This document shows, piece after piece, positions 1,033 through 41,408 of a DNA stretch of 41,408 nt. The notes beneath the pieces are model-generated. The model saw only the letters and a list, made by a program, of their open reading frames with translations. It searched no databases and was not told the DNA's origin. Every line of letters begins with the position of its first letter. Position 1 is the stretch's first letter. A program made the position numbers and the translations under genes. Origin of the DNA: Anaerosomatales bacterium. GTDB taxonomy: Bacteria; Actinomycetota; Coriobacteriia; Anaerosomatales; Anaerosomataceae. The stretch lies in contig JASEEU010000011.1 in the NCBI GenBank assembly GCA_030019445.1, positions 1 to 41,408 of the forward strand, written 5' to 3'.

Positions 1033-1611
1033 CGACTCGCGCAACCCCGGATCCTCATCCAGTGCTTGCTGCAGCAAGGATTCCCGCCGGCGCTCCGACA
1101 GCCACGTGCTGAGCTCGACGCGCAGGTGGACTCGATACCATGGCCGCCGCCATCCCACCAGCAGGCTCAGTGCGATCCACAGCGCCAGAATGCCGATCAA
1201 GATTGCATCCGAGAACAAGGCCCAGGGCCACAGCCAAACCGTCATGACCGCGAGCACAAGTGCCATCAGCGGCAGCAGCCCGAACCACCCCGTAGCGTCG
1301 AGAATCTGCATCTTTGTGCGCAGATACTCCCGCGGGTCCGCGCTGCCACGCTCAGCGCTCAAAGTAAGATACAGGCAGTCCGCGAGGTAGCTTCGCCAGC
1401 TATCCCAACCGATGTAGAGCACAGCCAGGAACACTGCAAGGACTGTGAAGAGAGTTGCACTGAAGCGGCCGGCCCACGAGCGCGCGAGCAGCAGACCGAC
1501 GGACCCCGCGATGACGAGCGCGATCACAACTGCGGCAGTCGGAGGTGAGACTTGACGGAGGAGAGAACGGTAATGCTCGGGGGACTGGAGGACTGTCGTT
1601 TCTCTCTCCAC
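1027..1611 (-). CDS. Small integral membrane protein of unknown function (integron cassette gene)
   Basis: A 194-residue protein with about four hydrophobic segments in two pairs: roughly 24-44, 50-68, then 106-127 and 132-152. The first pair and second pair are separated by a charged linker (about 70-105), and a charged, Arg/Glu-rich C-terminal tail of about 40 residues follows. I recognise no family and see no catalytic motif. The start is GTG with GGGAG five bases upstream. It is the first cassette after attI, and its stop codon lies in the attC inverse core. A membrane protein of this layout could be structural, a transport accessory or a toxin/immunity-type component; the sequence does not decide. 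Confidence 0.75.
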   Translation of the reverse strand: MERETTVLQSPEHYRSLLRQVSPPTAAVVIALVIAGSVGLLLARSWAGRFSATLFTVLAVFLAVLYIGWDSWRSYLADCLYLTLSAERGSADPREYLRTKMQILDATGWFGLLPLMALVLAVMTVWLWPWALFSDAILIGILALWIALSLLVGWRRPWYRVHLRVELSTWLSERRRESLLQQALDEDPGLRESA

Positions 1612-1630
1612 CTAATCTCCCAAGTGTTCG

Positions 1631-1680
1631 GCCTAACAACGATTCTGTTGTCAGAATACGCCTGCACGCTGACAGCGTGT
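1631..1680 (-). other. Candidate attI site at the intI-array junction
   Basis: The core GTTAGGC (minus, 1637-1631) opens the first cassette, so attI must abut it. Immediately on the intI side lie nested inverted repeats: ACAAC (1636-1640) with GTTGT (1647-1651), ATTCTG (1642-1647) with CAGAAT (1652-1657), and CACGCTG (1665-1671) with CAGCGTG (1673-1679), the last separated by a single base. The first overlaps the core and could be the paired L and R integrase boxes; the others could be accessory binding sites. The core position is firm; the extent of attI is inferred. Confidence 0.65.
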
Positions 1681-1820
1681 AGTCCGCTGCCGCCCGGCTT
1701 GGAGCCTTGGGTCGGCCGCATCTGGCGATCTCCAGTCTCGATAACCGAGGCGCTGGCGACGCCGGTCACGACGCCGCGCGCTGCGAGTCCCAGCCCTCCG
1801 TGGACCCTTCGTCTCTGCGG
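1638..1820. other. Intergenic stretch between intI and the array
   Basis: About 180 bases with no gene. Apart from the inverted repeats next to the cassette junction, it holds a six-base stem, CTGCGG with CCGCAG (1815-1829), whose three-base loop is the intI stop codon. I looked for a cassette promoter reading leftwards. The best -10 is TATTCT (1658-1653), with no convincing -35. Confidence 0.5.
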
Positions 1821-2786
1821 CTACCGCAGCCCGTCGAGGGGACTCCGCACACCGCAGCCGCCGCGGTTGAGCACGTGCGTGTAGACCATCGTCGTGGAAA
1901 CGCCCTTGTGCCCGAGCAGCTCTTGGATCGTCCGGATGTCGTAGCCGTTCTCCAGCAGGTGCGTCGCGAACGAGTGCCGGAACGTGTGGCAACCGACCTG
2001 TTTGGCGATGCCGGCGCGTCGCACCGCCTCCTTGACCGCGCGCTGCACGATCGTCGGATGCACGTGATGCCGTCCCTGCCGTCCGGTCCTCGCGTCGCGC
2101 CACCGCCGCTGCTGCGGGAAGACCCACTGCCACCGCCAGTCCGTCGGCGCGGCCGGGTACTTCCGGTCGAGGGCGTCAGGCAACAGCACCGCGCCCCACC
2201 CGTCGGCCAGGTCGCGCTCGTGCAGAGCACGCACTCCTCGCAGATGCCCCTGCAGCTCCGGTTTGAGCGCCTCGGGCAGCATCGTCACCCGGTCGCGGTC
2301 GCCCTTGCCCCGCCGCACGCAGATCTCGTTACGGCGGAAATCGATGTCCTGCACGCGCAGTCGCAAGCACTCCATCAGCCGCATGCCGGTGCCGTACATG
2401 AGCGAGGCGACCAGCCGGCTCTCGCCGTCCAGTTCGGCGAGCACCGCGCGGACCTCGGCCGGCGTCATGACCACGGGCACGCGATGCGACCGCGGCGCGC
2501 GAACCAGCCCTTCGAGGTCGCCGAGCTCCCTGCCGAGGACGTGTCGATACAGGAACAGCAGCGCCGAGAGGGCCTGCGTCTGCGTGGATGCGCTGACGTG
2601 ATCAGCCACCGCGAGATGCGTCAGGAACGCGTTCACCTCGGCCTCGCCCATGTCGGCAGGATGCCTGACCCCGTGGAACCGGATGAAGCGCAGCACCCAG
2701 CGGCAGTACGCCTGCTCCGTGCGCGGACTGTAGTGGCGCACGCGCAGGGCGTGACGCATCTGGTCCATCAGGCGTGACCGAGGCAT
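1821..2786 (-). CDS. intI: Integron integrase (tyrosine recombinase IntI)
   Basis: A 321-residue tyrosine recombinase that would recombine attC with attI. An N-terminal SAM-like DNA-binding domain (about 5-90, [11 protein letters not shown]) precedes the catalytic domain. Catalytic residues are present: Arg136 ([12 protein letters not shown]), Lys161, His267 and Arg270 ([12 protein letters not shown]), His293 ([11 protein letters not shown]) and Tyr302 (YTHVLNRGG). The insertion that separates IntI from other tyrosine recombinases is clear at about 207-225 ([19 protein letters not shown]). The ATG at 2786 has AGGAAGGA five bases upstream; an ATG at 2813 is in frame but lacks a ribosome site. 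It lies 68 bases behind leuD on the same strand. It is intact, so probably active. Confidence 0.95.
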
Positions 2787-10871: not shown

Positions 10872-11450
10872 GTGGCGTATCGCTTCAATCCCGCGAAGCT
10901 GGAGAAGCTCAACGACGTCCGCCGCCTCGACGACCTGCGACCGGACGAGATGTGGGCCGCGTTCGGCGTGCCCGACGCGCGCGTCGCGGTCGAGGTGGGC
11001 GCGGGCACGGGGATCTTCTCGGCGGAGTTCGCGCGACGCATGGCCGGGGGCGGCGTCCTGTACGCCGTCGACAGCGAGCCGGCGATGCTCGACTGGATGG
11101 CGGAGCACCTCCCCGACGACGTGCGGGGCACCATCGCCGTCACCGACGCCGACGCGCTCTCGCTGCCGCTCGAGGACGGCGCCGCGGACCTGGTCTTCTC
11201 GGTCAACCTGCACCACGAGCTGCCCGATCGCGCGGGCATGATCGCCGAGGCCGTGCGCGTGCTGCGCGCCGGCGGGACGCTCGGCATCGTGGACTGGGCG
11301 GCCGCCGAGACGCCCAAGGGGCCGCCGATCGAGCACCGCATCCCTGCCGAGACGATCGCCGCCGAGCTTGAGGCCGCCGGGCTTGCCGACGTCACCGTGC
11401 ACCCCGTGCTGCCGTACCATTCCGTCGTGACCGGGCGAAAGCCCGTGTGA
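10872..11450 (+). CDS. Class I SAM-dependent methyltransferase
   Basis: A 192-residue methyltransferase of the UbiE/Methyltransf_11 type. Motif I is VEVGAGTGIFSAEFA (about 38-52), the acidic residue that binds SAM ribose is in YAVDSEP, and LVFSVNLHHELPDRAGM is the post-II region. I chose the GTG at 10872 because GGAAAGGA ends seven bases before it; a TTG seven codons upstream lacks a ribosome site. It is probably co-transcribed with the lipoprotein gene 19 bases downstream. The substrate is unknown. Confidence 0.83.
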   Translation: MAYRFNPAKLEKLNDVRRLDDLRPDEMWAAFGVPDARVAVEVGAGTGIFSAEFARRMAGGGVLYAVDSEPAMLDWMAEHLPDDVRGTIAVTDADALSLPLEDGAADLVFSVNLHHELPDRAGMIAEAVRVLRAGGTLGIVDWAAAETPKGPPIEHRIPAETIAAELEAAGLADVTVHPVLPYHSVVTGRKPV

Positions 11451-37568: not shown

Positions 37569-38102
37569 CTACGCCCGTGCCCGCTGCGCATCGCCGATGC
37601 GCGCCGTGAGCGTGTCGACGAAGCGCTCCTCCTCGGCGGGAGACATCCCGAAGCGCGTCCCATCGGCGGTCGTGACGAGCAGGACGCCGCGCTGCATACG
37701 TGTCGAGCACATGCGCACGGTCCCGATGCCCCCGTAGGGCACCTTCCAGAGCGCCAGACCGGGAACGCGCATGCTCGACCACAACGACGGCACGAGGTCG
37801 GTCCGCCGCACCTCGGCGATAGACGCGTACGGCAGGTGGTACGCCAGCAGCGGCCCGTAGCGCAGCACGAGCTCCTGGTCGCCGATCTCGTAGCGCATGG
37901 CCGGGAAGAACGCGCCGACGACCAGGAACCACACGCCGAGCGCGGCGATGCCGAGCATCATGACCCACACGATCGGGGGCGTCTCGGCGCGCACCTCCGC
38001 GCTCGTGAGCGGCGCGACCCCCGAGACCACGACCGCGAGCGCCAGCGCGACGCACCACACCCATCCCCATGACGGCTTGGGCTTGAACACGATCGGTTCC
38101 AC
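37569..38102 (-). CDS. Membrane-anchored bacterial PH-domain protein
   Basis: A 177-residue protein with two N-terminal hydrophobic segments (about 14-35 and 45-68). A bacterial PH-like domain follows: AMRYEIGDQELVLRYGPLLAYHLPYASIAEVRRTDLVPSLWSSMRVPGLA through GVLLVTTADGTRFGMSPAEEERFVDTLTAR. Such domains appear in membrane scaffolding proteins with no defined activity. The GTG at 38102 has GAGAGGAG five bases upstream. It is probably translated with the PrsW gene, which starts one base after its stop. Confidence 0.78.
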   Translation of the reverse strand: MEPIVFKPKPSWGWVWCVALALAVVVSGVAPLTSAEVRAETPPIVWVMMLGIAALGVWFLVVGAFFPAMRYEIGDQELVLRYGPLLAYHLPYASIAEVRRTDLVPSLWSSMRVPGLALWKVPYGGIGTVRMCSTRMQRGVLLVTTADGTRFGMSPAEEERFVDTLTARIGDAQRARA

Positions 38103-38194
38103 CGGCGCTCCTCTCGACGGGCGACACCCCCAGTGTAGCGCTCCCGACCACCGCCCTCACCTGCGCGAACCGCTCAGCCGACAACACGGCACCT

Positions 38195-38211
38195 TTGGCA
38201 CGTGCGTTGCT
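38195..38211 (+). promoter_or_regulatory. Sigma-54-type (-24/-12) promoter of the copper operon
   Basis: TTGGCACGTGCGTTGCT matches the RpoN consensus TGGCACG-N4-TTGCW at every fixed base. The diagnostic GG (38197-38198) and GC (38209-38210) are ten bases apart. It lies 36 bases upstream of the GTG that opens the copper operon, a normal distance. No bacterial enhancer-binding protein is encoded in the window. Confidence 0.6.
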
Positions 38212-38246
38212 CCGCAAGCGTCGTCCGATATGTGCCGAGGAGGACC

Positions 38247-38618
38247 GTGGACCGCACGCCCCACATGCTGCGCGTCGCGCTGCCGCTGCTGCTGGTCGCA
38301 GCGGTGGCTGTGCCGCTCCTCGTGCCCGTGTGCTCGATGGCGATGTGCGCGCCCGAGGGGCTCGTGTGCGGCCCCCAAGGAGGGGACGCTCACGACACCG
38401 CTCCGTGCCACGGCGGTGGGTGCGACACCACCACGCTGATGCGCCACGACGACGGCGACGCGCTGGCCGCTGCGACCGTGGAAGTGCCGCGCGTCTGCCC
38501 GGCCGGTCTCATCCCGTCCATCGATGCCGATCTCGATACCATCGCCATCGCTTCGGCCGTCGACAGCCCGACGGTCCCCCCGCCCGAGAACCCGCTCGGC
38601 GTCGTCATTCGGGTCTAG
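38247..38618 (+). CDS. Small exported Cys/Met-rich protein, first gene of the copper operon
   Basis: A 123-residue protein with an N-terminal hydrophobic segment (HMLRVALPLLLVAAVAVPLLVPVCSMAMC, about 6-34) that may be a signal or anchor. A Cys, Met and His cluster follows (CSMAMCAPEGLVCGP, then HDTAPCHGGGC), suggesting metal binding outside the membrane. The C-terminal half lacks Cys apart from one (VCPAGLIPSIDADLDTIAIAS). The GTG has GAGGAGGA upstream. I recognise no family. Its place ahead of copper genes supports a copper role, but this is inference. Confidence 0.65.
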   Translation: MDRTPHMLRVALPLLLVAAVAVPLLVPVCSMAMCAPEGLVCGPQGGDAHDTAPCHGGGCDTTTLMRHDDGDALAAATVEVPRVCPAGLIPSIDADLDTIAIASAVDSPTVPPPENPLGVVIRV

Positions 38619-38636
38619 AAGCGCTCCTCGTGTGAA

Positions 38637-38686
38637 GCGCGACCTCGCGAAGCGACCGGTCGCGCCCGGAAGGCGCCTGCCTTCCG
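38637..38686 (+). other. Two hairpins between the small protein and the SafE gene
   Basis: GCGCGACC (38637-38644) pairs with GGTCGCGC (38658-38665), and the inner palindrome GCGACCGGTCGC (38652-38663) competes with it. CGGAAGG (38667-38673) pairs with CCTTCCG (38680-38686). There is no T-run. They could set mRNA stability or be partial terminators that lower expression of the downstream genes. Confidence 0.45.
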
Positions 38687-38720
38687 ACCGTACCGTCAGA
38701 TTCTCACGAGGAGAATGACC

Positions 38721-39887
38721 GTGGACCTGTTCCTCCCCATGCTCGGGGTCGGTCTCGTGACGAGCGTGCACTGCGTCGCCATGTGCGGGAGCCTCGTCCT
38801 CACCTACGCGGTGAAGGACGACTCACACGGCCCGTGGTTCAAACGCATGCTGCCGCACGTGGCCTACCAGAGCGCCAAGATCGTGAGCTACGTCGCCGTC
38901 GGCCTCGCCCTCGGCCTCATCGGCTCGCTGTTCGACCTCGGCGGCCTGCGCGGCGCGATCACGATCTTCGCCGGCGTCTTCATGGTGCTGCTCGGCCTCC
39001 AGATGACCGGGAGAGCGCCGTGGCTTCGCGCGCTGACCCTCCGTCCGCCACGCGCGCTCGTCGACGCTCTCGGCAAGACGCGCCGCAAGGCGATGGCCGA
39101 GGCGCGCGAGGGCCGGACGAGCCTCACGACTCCGGTGACGTTCGGACTGCTCACCGGCCTCATGCCCTGCGGACCGCTCCAGTCCGCGCAACTCGCTGCA
39201 GCCGGCGCGGGAACCGCGCTCGGCGGCGCCGTGTCGATGCTGGGATTCGGCCTGGGCACGATGCCGCTCATGCTCGCGTTCGGCGCTGTCTCCGGCCTGC
39301 TCACCGCCCGGTTCAAAGACCGCATGATGACGGTCGCCGCGCTCGTCATCATGGTGCTCGGCCTCATCATGCTCAACCGCGGCCTCATGCTCGTCGGCTC
39401 GCCCGTCACGGCCGACAGCATCAAGAACGCCGTGCTCGGGACGCCGGCGGCGGAGCAGCCCGCCGCAGGCTATGCCGTCGGTGAGGATGGCGTCACCGAG
39501 GTGCCGCTCGTCATCGAGAACACGCGGTTCGTACCCGCGTCGCTCTCGATCCCGGCTGACCGTGCGGTCCGGCTCGTCGTGGACCGCCGCGAGGCGAACG
39601 CATGCTCCGACCAGCTCTGGCTGCCTCAGCTGGACGTGATGGTCGACCTCGTCCCCAACGGCACGACCGTGATAGACCTTCCGCCCACGCCGAGCGGCAC
39701 GTACACGCTCACCTGCGGTATGGGCATGATGTCCGGCCAGCTCGTGGTCGGCGCTGGAGCCCCGGGTTCGAGCGGGATCGACCTGCCGCTCCTGCTCGCG
39801 CTCATCGTCGGCGGACTCGCTGCCGTCGGCCTGTACGTGACCCGTCCCAACCGACCCGGCGCGACCGCGCCGGCGGCCACCCGATGA
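38721..39887 (+). CDS. SafE/DsbD-like membrane protein fused to a cupredoxin domain
   Basis: A 388-residue fusion. The N-terminal six-helix domain (about 1-225) is of the sulfite exporter TauE/SafE or CcdA/DsbD type. The metal or redox motif HCVAMCGSLVLTYA lies in the first helix and LMPCGPLQSAQLAAAGAG in the fourth. The C-terminal part (about 250-345) is a cupredoxin-like beta domain with Cys-Ser-Asp and TCGMGMMSGQLVV ligands, then a final anchor helix (about 355-377). I chose the GTG at 38721 because GAGGAG lies seven bases before it; the ATG at 38715 is only one base away. A copper trafficking role fits the neighbouring CopA. Confidence 0.8.
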   Translation: MDLFLPMLGVGLVTSVHCVAMCGSLVLTYAVKDDSHGPWFKRMLPHVAYQSAKIVSYVAVGLALGLIGSLFDLGGLRGAITIFAGVFMVLLGLQMTGRAPWLRALTLRPPRALVDALGKTRRKAMAEAREGRTSLTTPVTFGLLTGLMPCGPLQSAQLAAAGAGTALGGAVSMLGFGLGTMPLMLAFGAVSGLLTARFKDRMMTVAALVIMVLGLIMLNRGLMLVGSPVTADSIKNAVLGTPAAEQPAAGYAVGEDGVTEVPLVIENTRFVPASLSIPADRAVRLVVDRREANACSDQLWLPQLDVMVDLVPNGTTVIDLPPTPSGTYTLTCGMGMMSGQLVVGAGAPGSSGIDLPLLLALIVGGLAAVGLYVTRPNRPGATAPAATR

Positions 39888-39901: not shown

Positions 39902-40411
39902 ATGTCCGCGACCAAGACCGTACAGACACCCACCGCCGTGAGGGCCGCTCTCGTCGCCATCCTCATCGTCGCGGCGTTCTTCGCCGCGTATCGCATCACG
40001 AGCGGCACACCAAGCGCCGCGTTCGCCGAGGGAAGCGACGCGGTCGCGACCCAGGCCGCGTTCGGCGGCGACGCCGCCGACGCCGGCGCCGCCTGCGCCT
40101 GCTGCGGCAACGCCGGGACCGGCGAGCCCATCGAAGGCGCCGCCGTGCTCGAAGGCGACGTCCAGCGCATCACCGTCGACACCGCGAACGGCTATGACCC
40201 CAACGTGATCAGGCTGGCCGCCGGCGTGCCCACGGAGATCACGTTCAAGCAGGGTTCCGGCTGCATGGCCGAGGTCATGTCGCAGGATCTCGGCTTCTTC
40301 GAAGACCTGACCAACGGCGATGTGACGATCACCCTGCCGCCGCTCGAGCCCGGTGAGTACGGCTTCTCGTGCGGCATGGCGATGGTGTTCGGCACCATCG
40401 TCGTGGAGTAG
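39902..40411 (+). CDS. Membrane-anchored cupredoxin-like copper protein
   Basis: A 169-residue protein. An N-terminal anchor or signal (about 13-28) is followed by a Cys-rich linker (GAACACCGNAG, about 60-70) and a cupredoxin-like domain (about 80-169). The domain has GSGCMAEVMSQDLG and FSCGMAMVFGTIVVE, a Cys-x-Met-x-Met ligand set like that in the SafE fusion. The ATG at 39902 has AAGGAG nine bases upstream; another ATG at 39884 overlaps the preceding stop and is possible. It probably passes or buffers copper at the outer face of the membrane. Confidence 0.75.
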   Translation: MSATKTVQTPTAVRAALVAILIVAAFFAAYRITSGTPSAAFAEGSDAVATQAAFGGDAADAGAACACCGNAGTGEPIEGAAVLEGDVQRITVDTANGYDPNVIRLAAGVPTEITFKQGSGCMAEVMSQDLGFFEDLTNGDVTITLPPLEPGEYGFSCGMAMVFGTIVVE

Positions 40412-40420
40412 GAGCGAGCT

Positions 40421-41408
40421 ATGAGCCCTGATACTTCCACGCTCACTGCGTGCCCTGTGCTTCCCGACGAGACCGGCGATCCGGTGCCGCCTGAGGTCGG
40501 CCAGAGCGACGCGCAGGCGCGATTCGCCATCACGGGCATGACGTGCGCGTCGTGCTCGGCCATCATCGAGAAGATCGTCGGCAGGCTGCCGGGCATCGCT
40601 TCGGCGACCGTGAACCTCGCCGCCGAGAAGCTCGCGGTGACCTATGACTCCGCACGCATCTCCCCCGGCGACATCGTGGCCGCCGTCGAAGGCGCTGGCT
40701 ACGGCGCGACGCTGCTCGACGAAGCGGCTCCCGCGCCCGGCGGGACCGTCCGTCTCGGCATCCTCGGCATGACGTGCTCGTCGTGCCAGGCGGTCGTCGA
40801 GAAGACGCTGTCGCGCGTGGACGGCGTGCGCTCGGCGGCCGTCAACCTCGCGAACGAGACCGCCACCGTGGTGATCGACCCGACCGCGGTCGGCGTCGAC
40901 GAGCTCATCGGCGCGATCCGTGCCGCCGGCTACGACGCCCTCGTCAAGGCGGATGCGGCACCCGGCGCCGAGCCGCGCGATGCGCAGCGTGCCGCCCAGG
41001 AGAAGGCCGAGAAGCGTGCGCTCGTCCGCTTCTGGAGCTCGGTGGCGCTCTCGGTCCCGCTCTTCTTCATCGCGATGGTCCCGCCGTTCATGATGACGGT
41101 GCCCGAGGCGACCGCCTCGTGGCTCTCGGCCACCCTGGGCGGCACCTTCGACGCCATGCTCGTGCACAAGTGGATGATGTTCGCGCTGACCACGCCGGTG
41201 CAGTTCGTGATCGGCTGGCAGTTCTACCGCGGCGCCTGGGGCGCCATCAAGCAGCGCGCCGGCAACATGGACACGCTGATCGCGATCGGCACCTCGGCGG
41301 CGTACTTCTACAGCCTCGCGGCGACCGTCGTCCCCACCCTGGCGGAGGAGCCTGTCTTCTACGAGACGAGCGCGCTGCTGATCACGTTCGTCCTGCTCGG
41401 CAAGCTGC
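40421..41408 (+). CDS. copA: Copper-transporting P-type ATPase CopA, 3' end cut by the window edge
   Basis: The first 329 codons of a P1B-type ATPase; no stop appears before the window ends. Two heavy-metal-associated domains are complete: GMTCASC at about 44-50 and GMTCSSC at about 117-123, each in a beta-alpha-beta-beta-alpha-beta context. The first membrane helices follow (about 200 onwards, FWSSVALSVPLFFIAMVPPF) with GNMDTLIAIGTSAAYFYS, typical of CopA helix 4. The ATG has GGAG six bases upstream. CPC, DKTG and later domains lie beyond the edge. It exports Cu(I) and closes this visible copper operon. Confidence 0.92.
   Translation, partial: MSPDTSTLTACPVLPDETGDPVPPEVGQSDAQARFAITGMTCASCSAIIEKIVGRLPGIASATVNLAAEKLAVTYDSARISPGDIVAAVEGAGYGATLLDEAAPAPGGTVRLGILGMTCSSCQAVVEKTLSRVDGVRSAAVNLANETATVVIDPTAVGVDELIGAIRAAGYDALVKADAAPGAEPRDAQRAAQEKAEKRALVRFWSSVALSVPLFFIAMVPPFMMTVPEATASWLSATLGGTFDAMLVHKWMMFALTTPVQFVIGWQFYRGAWGAIKQRAGNMDTLIAIGTSAAYFYSLAATVVPTLAEEPVFYETSALLITFVLLGKL

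Follow-up and report, generated by a model that had tools for sequence, protein, structure and literature searches.

Copper operons controlled by CsoR or RicR are known from other Actinomycetota, and a zinc-responsive sigma-54 two-component system, ZraSR, is known from enterobacteria. In the part of its description available to us, CorSR-sigma54 of Myxococcus xanthus is a sigma-54 two-component system for copper (PMC3707914). A survey from 2011, of which a part was likewise available, reports a dedicated sigma-54 with one activator in Chlamydia and Borrelia, and says in the same part that Actinobacteria are without a sigma-54 system (PMC3162934).

Here we have analysed a copper operon of an Anaerosomatales bacterium, located on contig C2 within a stretch of 41,408 nucleotides that is referred to as the window. 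A sigma-54 promoter ahead of this operon had been proposed from the sequence (the original prediction). No published description of such a circuit was found in the literature searched, and the words sigma, rpoN and copper are absent from the text of a paper describing the order, of which there are isolates (PMC9686372).

The copper operon and its -24/-12 element

The element, TGGCACGTGCGTTGCT, occupies positions 38196-38211 of the forward strand and is preceded by a T at 38195. Its GG (38197-38198) and GC (38209-38210) are ten bases apart, and it agrees with the pattern TGGCACG-N4-TTGCW that served as the criterion for a sigma-54 dependent promoter, so that the sequence is as originally described. 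The GTG of the first gene, at 38247, lies 35 bases past the site. The features of the region are as follows.

38196..38211, forward strand: very probable sigma-54 (RpoN) -24/-12 promoter element, TGGCACG-N4-TTGCT (sequence, matrix, shuffles, conservation in related operons)
38222, forward strand: predicted transcription start, 12 nt past the -12 C (distance derived from the small RNA, 50 of 50 copies)
38237..38244, forward strand: Shine-Dalgarno sequence GAGGAGGA (sequence)
38247..38618, forward strand: small secreted or membrane-anchored protein containing Cys, Met and His, 123 aa, without Pfam family (Pfam search)
38715..39887, forward strand: fusion of a DsbD_2 membrane domain with a cupredoxin domain (PF13386, 9.7e-45; PF13473, 1.3e-13)
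39902..40411, forward strand: cupredoxin protein (PF13473, 1.7e-14)
40421..41408, forward strand: N-terminal part, including two HMA domains, of a CopA-type copper P-ATPase (PF00403, 1.8e-36; NCBIfam)

The CopA-type gene is cut off by the contig end (C2, 41408); a full-length ATPase of a related operon (L128) passes TIGR01511 with 612 bits against a cut-off of 397. Relatives of the first-gene product with a C-x-M-P-x-C-like motif precede the DsbD_2 gene in many related operons, where a simple start finder gave an open reading frame in 20 of 34 loci, the one in L142 apparently in the wrong frame.

The original prediction also held that an exact match would be improbable by chance in 41 kb. The window contains one match, and 100 dinucleotide shuffles of it contained none. 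In the genome (2,093,894 bases, 23 contigs) positions 38196-38211 are the sole exact match to TGGCACGNNNNTTGCW, against one match to the reversed control pattern, and with one mismatch allowed 20 sites compare with 16 for the control. Summed among the sites listed for 69 genomes of the order, 82 exact sites stand against 56 controls. The genome is not enriched by count alone, and the argument for the promoter comes from its position and its conservation rather than from the counts.

Conservation of the element ahead of copper operons

A matrix was trained on 48 rpoN-linked promoter sites of other genomes. The window site scores 18.1 on this matrix, the next best position in the window scores 9.2, and none of 2,483,460 Markov positions reached the score of the window site. 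In the test with this matrix, L039-L043 also belonged to the training set, and L044-L046, L084, L091 and L097 had been chosen with a nearby exact site already known. A stricter matrix was made from 38 sites, without the rpoN loci next to copper operons; L027 and L039-L043 were taken out of its training.

With the stricter matrix, 42 of 51 loci titled as Actinomycetota had a site at a distance of 380-640 bases ahead of the DsbD_2 gene, and none of 25 outgroup loci, nearly all of them from Clostridia, had one. Two controls, one using the reverse strand and one the interior of the gene, were clean in the 51 loci (0/51 each) and gave one hit each in the outgroup (1/25 each). The set comprised 79 loci, from which L164, L175 and L191 were left out for having too little upstream DNA; L179, from an uncultured bacterium, was placed in the outgroup. 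Several of the loci L128-L181 are the same contigs as L028-L047, and the counts from the two matrix tests are hence not additive. Most of the nine copper loci below the score threshold (9/51) keep a weakened site at the same distance, and no site, even weakened, was seen before the DsbD_2 gene of L171 and L176. We conclude that 38196-38211 is very probably a genuine RpoN promoter ahead of the copper genes, and we hold with high confidence that the operon is under RpoN control.

The second DsbD_2/cupredoxin homologue of this genome (contig C7, L208), 50% identical and with an in-frame TAA in the match, has no -24/-12 site. Strong -24/-12 matches (12-15 bits) occur on the opposite strand before the DsbD_2 gene in L154, L155 and L162, together with a weaker forward site; these are possibly divergent RpoN promoters. 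A dyad search and an alignment of the upstream DNA gave no convincing enhancer (UAS) motif common to the promoters, and the words enriched in the upstream DNA reflect close relatives.

Sites of the same kind were also seen elsewhere. In this genome, a one-mismatch -24/-12 site (L013:1501-1516; C16:153268) lies 41 bases before an open reading frame at 1556-2203 (forward strand) encoding another secreted protein, whose weak match to a cupredoxin domain does not reach the Pfam cut-off; the gene may also belong to the regulon. Four genomes of one genus (G007-G010) carry an exact site 39-40 bases before a conserved gene (L048:722, L075:680, L078 and L081) whose product starts with MxEVWSKADLHIHSDHSDG and looks PHP-like by eye, and in L103 (G036:C11) an exact site lies 65 bases before a protein that is NifH-like by eye.

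RpoN and its kinase-regulator pair

Both proteins on which the original prediction depended are encoded in the genome. The single copy of rpoN (TIGR02395, 408 bits) encodes the activator-interacting, core-binding and DNA-binding domains (PF00309, PF04963 and PF04552), and its translation contains ARRTVAKYRE, which we take to be the RpoN box. An enhancer-binding protein is represented by one strong Sigma54_activat match of 244 bits, and four further matches of 26-31 bits were taken for other AAA+ proteins. The strong match is an NtrC-type response regulator with receiver, AAA+ and Fis domains (PF00072, PF00158, PF02954 type, as in CorR), and GAFTGA, the loop motif of enhancer-binding AAA+ activators, can be read in its translation.

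In this genome rpoN, a PAS histidine kinase and the regulator are consecutive, on another contig than the copper operon, and the inspected loci show the same arrangement. All 26 loci have a TGGTAYR-N4-TTGCW site ahead of rpoN, and behind the regulator gene a TGGCAYR-N4-TTGCA site was present in 24 of the 25 loci that could be tested (the exception is L061; L066 ends before the regulator). Roughly half of the loci used for the post-regulator site were picked from genomes in which an exact site was already known; the sites upstream of rpoN were not so chosen. In five genomes (L039-L043) the rpoN-kinase-regulator set is followed immediately by a DsbD_2 operon with the post-regulator promoter at its head, and in four of them the stretch includes CopA as well. 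In this genome the site TGGCACATGCCTTGCA is followed there by genes for a zinc-ribbon membrane protein, an HMA protein and a CcdA-type protein (PF02683). An AT-rich CATAAT/AATATA stretch was seen just ahead of the -24 element upstream of rpoN, for example in L043, L062 and L065, and may serve the basal expression of rpoN as an overlapping -10 box for sigma-70.

The membrane region of the kinase is rich in His and Met at positions that are not invariant, and an invariant set of metal ligands was not found in the sensor of the aligned kinases. Pfam gave no HAMP domain in the kinase, in which several hydrophobic helices are apparent by eye. The promoter element and its conserved position, RpoN, the single strong regulator and the content of the operon can all be read from the DNA.

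The system is widespread in the order. Among 69 genomes assigned to Anaerosomatales/OPB41 by record titles, RpoN was found in 66 and at least one strong activator in 65 (54 with one, 11 with two). Across the phylum RpoN was matched in only 21 of 396 sampled genomes (18 above the cut-off, and four of the matches from this order), in agreement with the earlier statement that RpoN is absent from most Actinomycetota. The rpoN-kinase-regulator order is also present in two loci from outside the class (L218 and L219), and no copper genes adjoin the set in either. Because of this, it seems that the link to copper is a feature of this order, or that the signal is broader.

A C-rich small RNA and the predicted transcription start

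An RNA of about 90-100 nt, apparently undescribed, came to light through the exact sites of the order. Its first domain is closed and carries a CCTCCCCCC loop, and it ends in a terminator hairpin whose loop is C-rich; each RNA has two CCTCCCCCC-type loops. This genome has two copies (C18 96521-96626 and C22 31798-31908, both on the reverse strand; loci L020/L213/L238 and L259), 12-13 nt behind a -24/-12 site. The fold is supported by 33 copies, which share 19 pairs, 13 of them with compensatory changes; 98.2% of the cells of the alignment pair, against at most 52% when it is slid, and a copy of this genome folds with -43.8 kcal/mol (z -4.79). A covariance model found the RNA in 67 of the 69 genomes of the order; in a sample of the class it was present in 67 of 197 genomes and in none of the 128 outside the order. 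No Rfam family matched the RNA at the gathering score. In five loci of other genomes a weak similarity to ar14 appeared in two (31.6 and 26.6 bits against 58.8), and the two copies of this genome gave no Rfam match up to E 0.1. A site about 180 bp before a WYL gene, considered as the promoter of that gene, was rejected as such and is the promoter of the non-coding RNA.

All 50 copies inspected had a -24/-12 site with its -12 C 11-14 nt before the start of the RNA model, 49 of the sites scoring at least 11 and one 7.4, and 20 of the 50 copies had been fetched because they were without the exact motif. Since the covariance model contains no promoter, this spacing supports that the motif is in use and that transcription starts about 12 nt past the C, which would place the start of the copper operon at 38222. 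The predicted start near 38222 is in this way backed by the small RNA, which offers an independent ruler for transcription starts and represents a regulator family without Rfam match at thresholds. The small RNA is the most novel part of the circuit.

Discussion

Taken together, it is highly likely that a real RpoN promoter, switched by the kinase-regulator pair encoded with rpoN, drives the copper operon. RpoN holoenzyme would bind 38196-38211 as a closed complex, the membrane histidine kinase would phosphorylate its partner, the NtrC-type regulator encoded with rpoN, and the phosphorylated regulator would open the complex by ATP hydrolysis. Transcription from near 38222 would then yield the small Cys protein, the DsbD_2-cupredoxin fusion, the cupredoxin and CopA, and the same switch would drive rpoN, the genes behind the regulator and the two C-rich small RNA copies.

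A more conventional explanation would be that the match arose by chance and that the operon has an ordinary sigma-70 promoter under CsoR, CueR or CopY. Equal numbers of exact matches and reversed controls in the genome (one and one) are in line with this, as are the eight exact CsoR-type operators elsewhere in it, those at csoR and ccdA included. A chance match would not be rejected by the counts, but it is by the conserved position of the site in 42 of 51 operons, for which the controls were clean. Neither a sigma-70 consensus in 37700-38760 nor, by exact pattern search, a CsoR-type operator (TACCC-N4/5-GGGTA) on contig C2 was found. CsoR binds copper through Cys-His-Cys ligands, the His of GtCsoR among them, and the only CsoR-family protein of the genome has a Ser aligned to this His, four residues before the second Cys; Ser or Ala is found there in nine of nine aligned members of the order. 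CsoR control of 38196-38211 was rejected on account of the contig being free of exact operators of this kind and the protein lacking the His, and a chance match under sigma-70 control is very improbable. In L027, the CsoR-family gene (10947-11315, forward strand) is accompanied by CsoR-type operators at the gene itself, at ccdA and at a thioredoxin gene, and its product is perhaps a sulfur (CstR-like) sensor. Dual control, in which the RpoN promoter is joined by a second repressor or promoter not recognised here, is an unlikely arrangement, albeit one with a parallel in Myxococcus copA, which has CorR-sigma54 and ECF CorE promoters according to the available part of PMC3707914. The AT-rich -10-like stretches before the rpoN promoter in several genomes would suit it, but the lack of a sigma-70 consensus in 37700-38760 argues against it.

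Two points are inferred: in the cell, transcription is driven by RpoN, and the signal of the kinase is copper excess or a correlate of it. Copper excess itself is a reasonably likely inducer, a view that draws on gene content because the His and Met residues of the kinase are not invariant. Alternatively, RpoN could control the operon with a kinase that senses envelope thiol or redox stress, copper shortage or respiration, and with genes that deliver copper to enzymes or protect the envelope, a reading that we consider plausible, if somewhat doubtful. It would accommodate a sensor without invariant metal ligands, the CcdA-type thiol transporter (PF02683) in the post-regulator operon, a small RNA without known target in the regulon, and the rpoN-kinase-regulator sets of two other actinobacterial lineages without adjoining copper genes. 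On the other hand, the conserved promoters head CopA, HMA and cupredoxin genes, and five genomes have the copper operon immediately after the regulator.

Since this genome has one strong activator only, the activity of any RpoN promoter in it should reflect that single kinase, and the copper question can be tested directly. A tentative and rather unlikely extension is that the whole order has turned RpoN into a small dedicated copper switch, in which one kinase, one NtrC-type activator and an rpoN with a promoter of its own kind govern the genes for copper export and delivery, with the CCUCCCCCC loops of the pair of small RNAs capping ribosome-binding sites in a bacterial copper-sparing response. 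If so, copper stress would silence selected proteins while switching on export.

Comparison with known systems

The operon shares its CopA and HMA gene content with the CsoR/RicR operons of other Actinomycetota and differs from them in a contig without exact CsoR-type operator and in a CsoR-family protein without the His that is a ligand in GtCsoR. With ZraSR it has the NtrC-type regulator in common (NCBIfam ZraR 397 bits, ZraS 222 bits), but both scores fall far short of their curated cut-offs (760 and 479). AtoC, the model with the best match, does not reach its own cut-off either, and the annotated loci showed no ZraP-like gene.

As far as the available part of its description goes (PMC3707914), CorSR is also a histidine kinase with a regulator containing PF00072, PF00158 and PF02954, acting on -24/-12 promoters with targets that include a cupredoxin_1 protein and the copper ATPase CopA. 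From the same part, CorS combines a single transmembrane segment with a periplasmic sensor and HAMP, whereas the kinase described here has a multi-helix membrane region and PAS; CorSR is encoded in a copper operon, whereas the present pair accompanies an rpoN bearing its own -24/-12 site and lies beside the copper operon in five relatives. The small RNA is an extra member here, and no multicopper oxidase was seen in this circuit. As known here from sequence, the circuit works like CorSR and is not of the same family, since sensor architecture and gene location differ.

The combination of one RpoN with one strong enhancer-binding protein resembles Chlamydia and Borrelia, as these are presented in the available part of PMC3162934, but it occurs in another phylum, with copper genes in the regulon and with rpoN co-operonic with a two-component pair. 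A compact sigma-54 circuit that extends across the order, with promoters of its main members readable by eye, contrasts with the 2011 statement on Actinobacteria.
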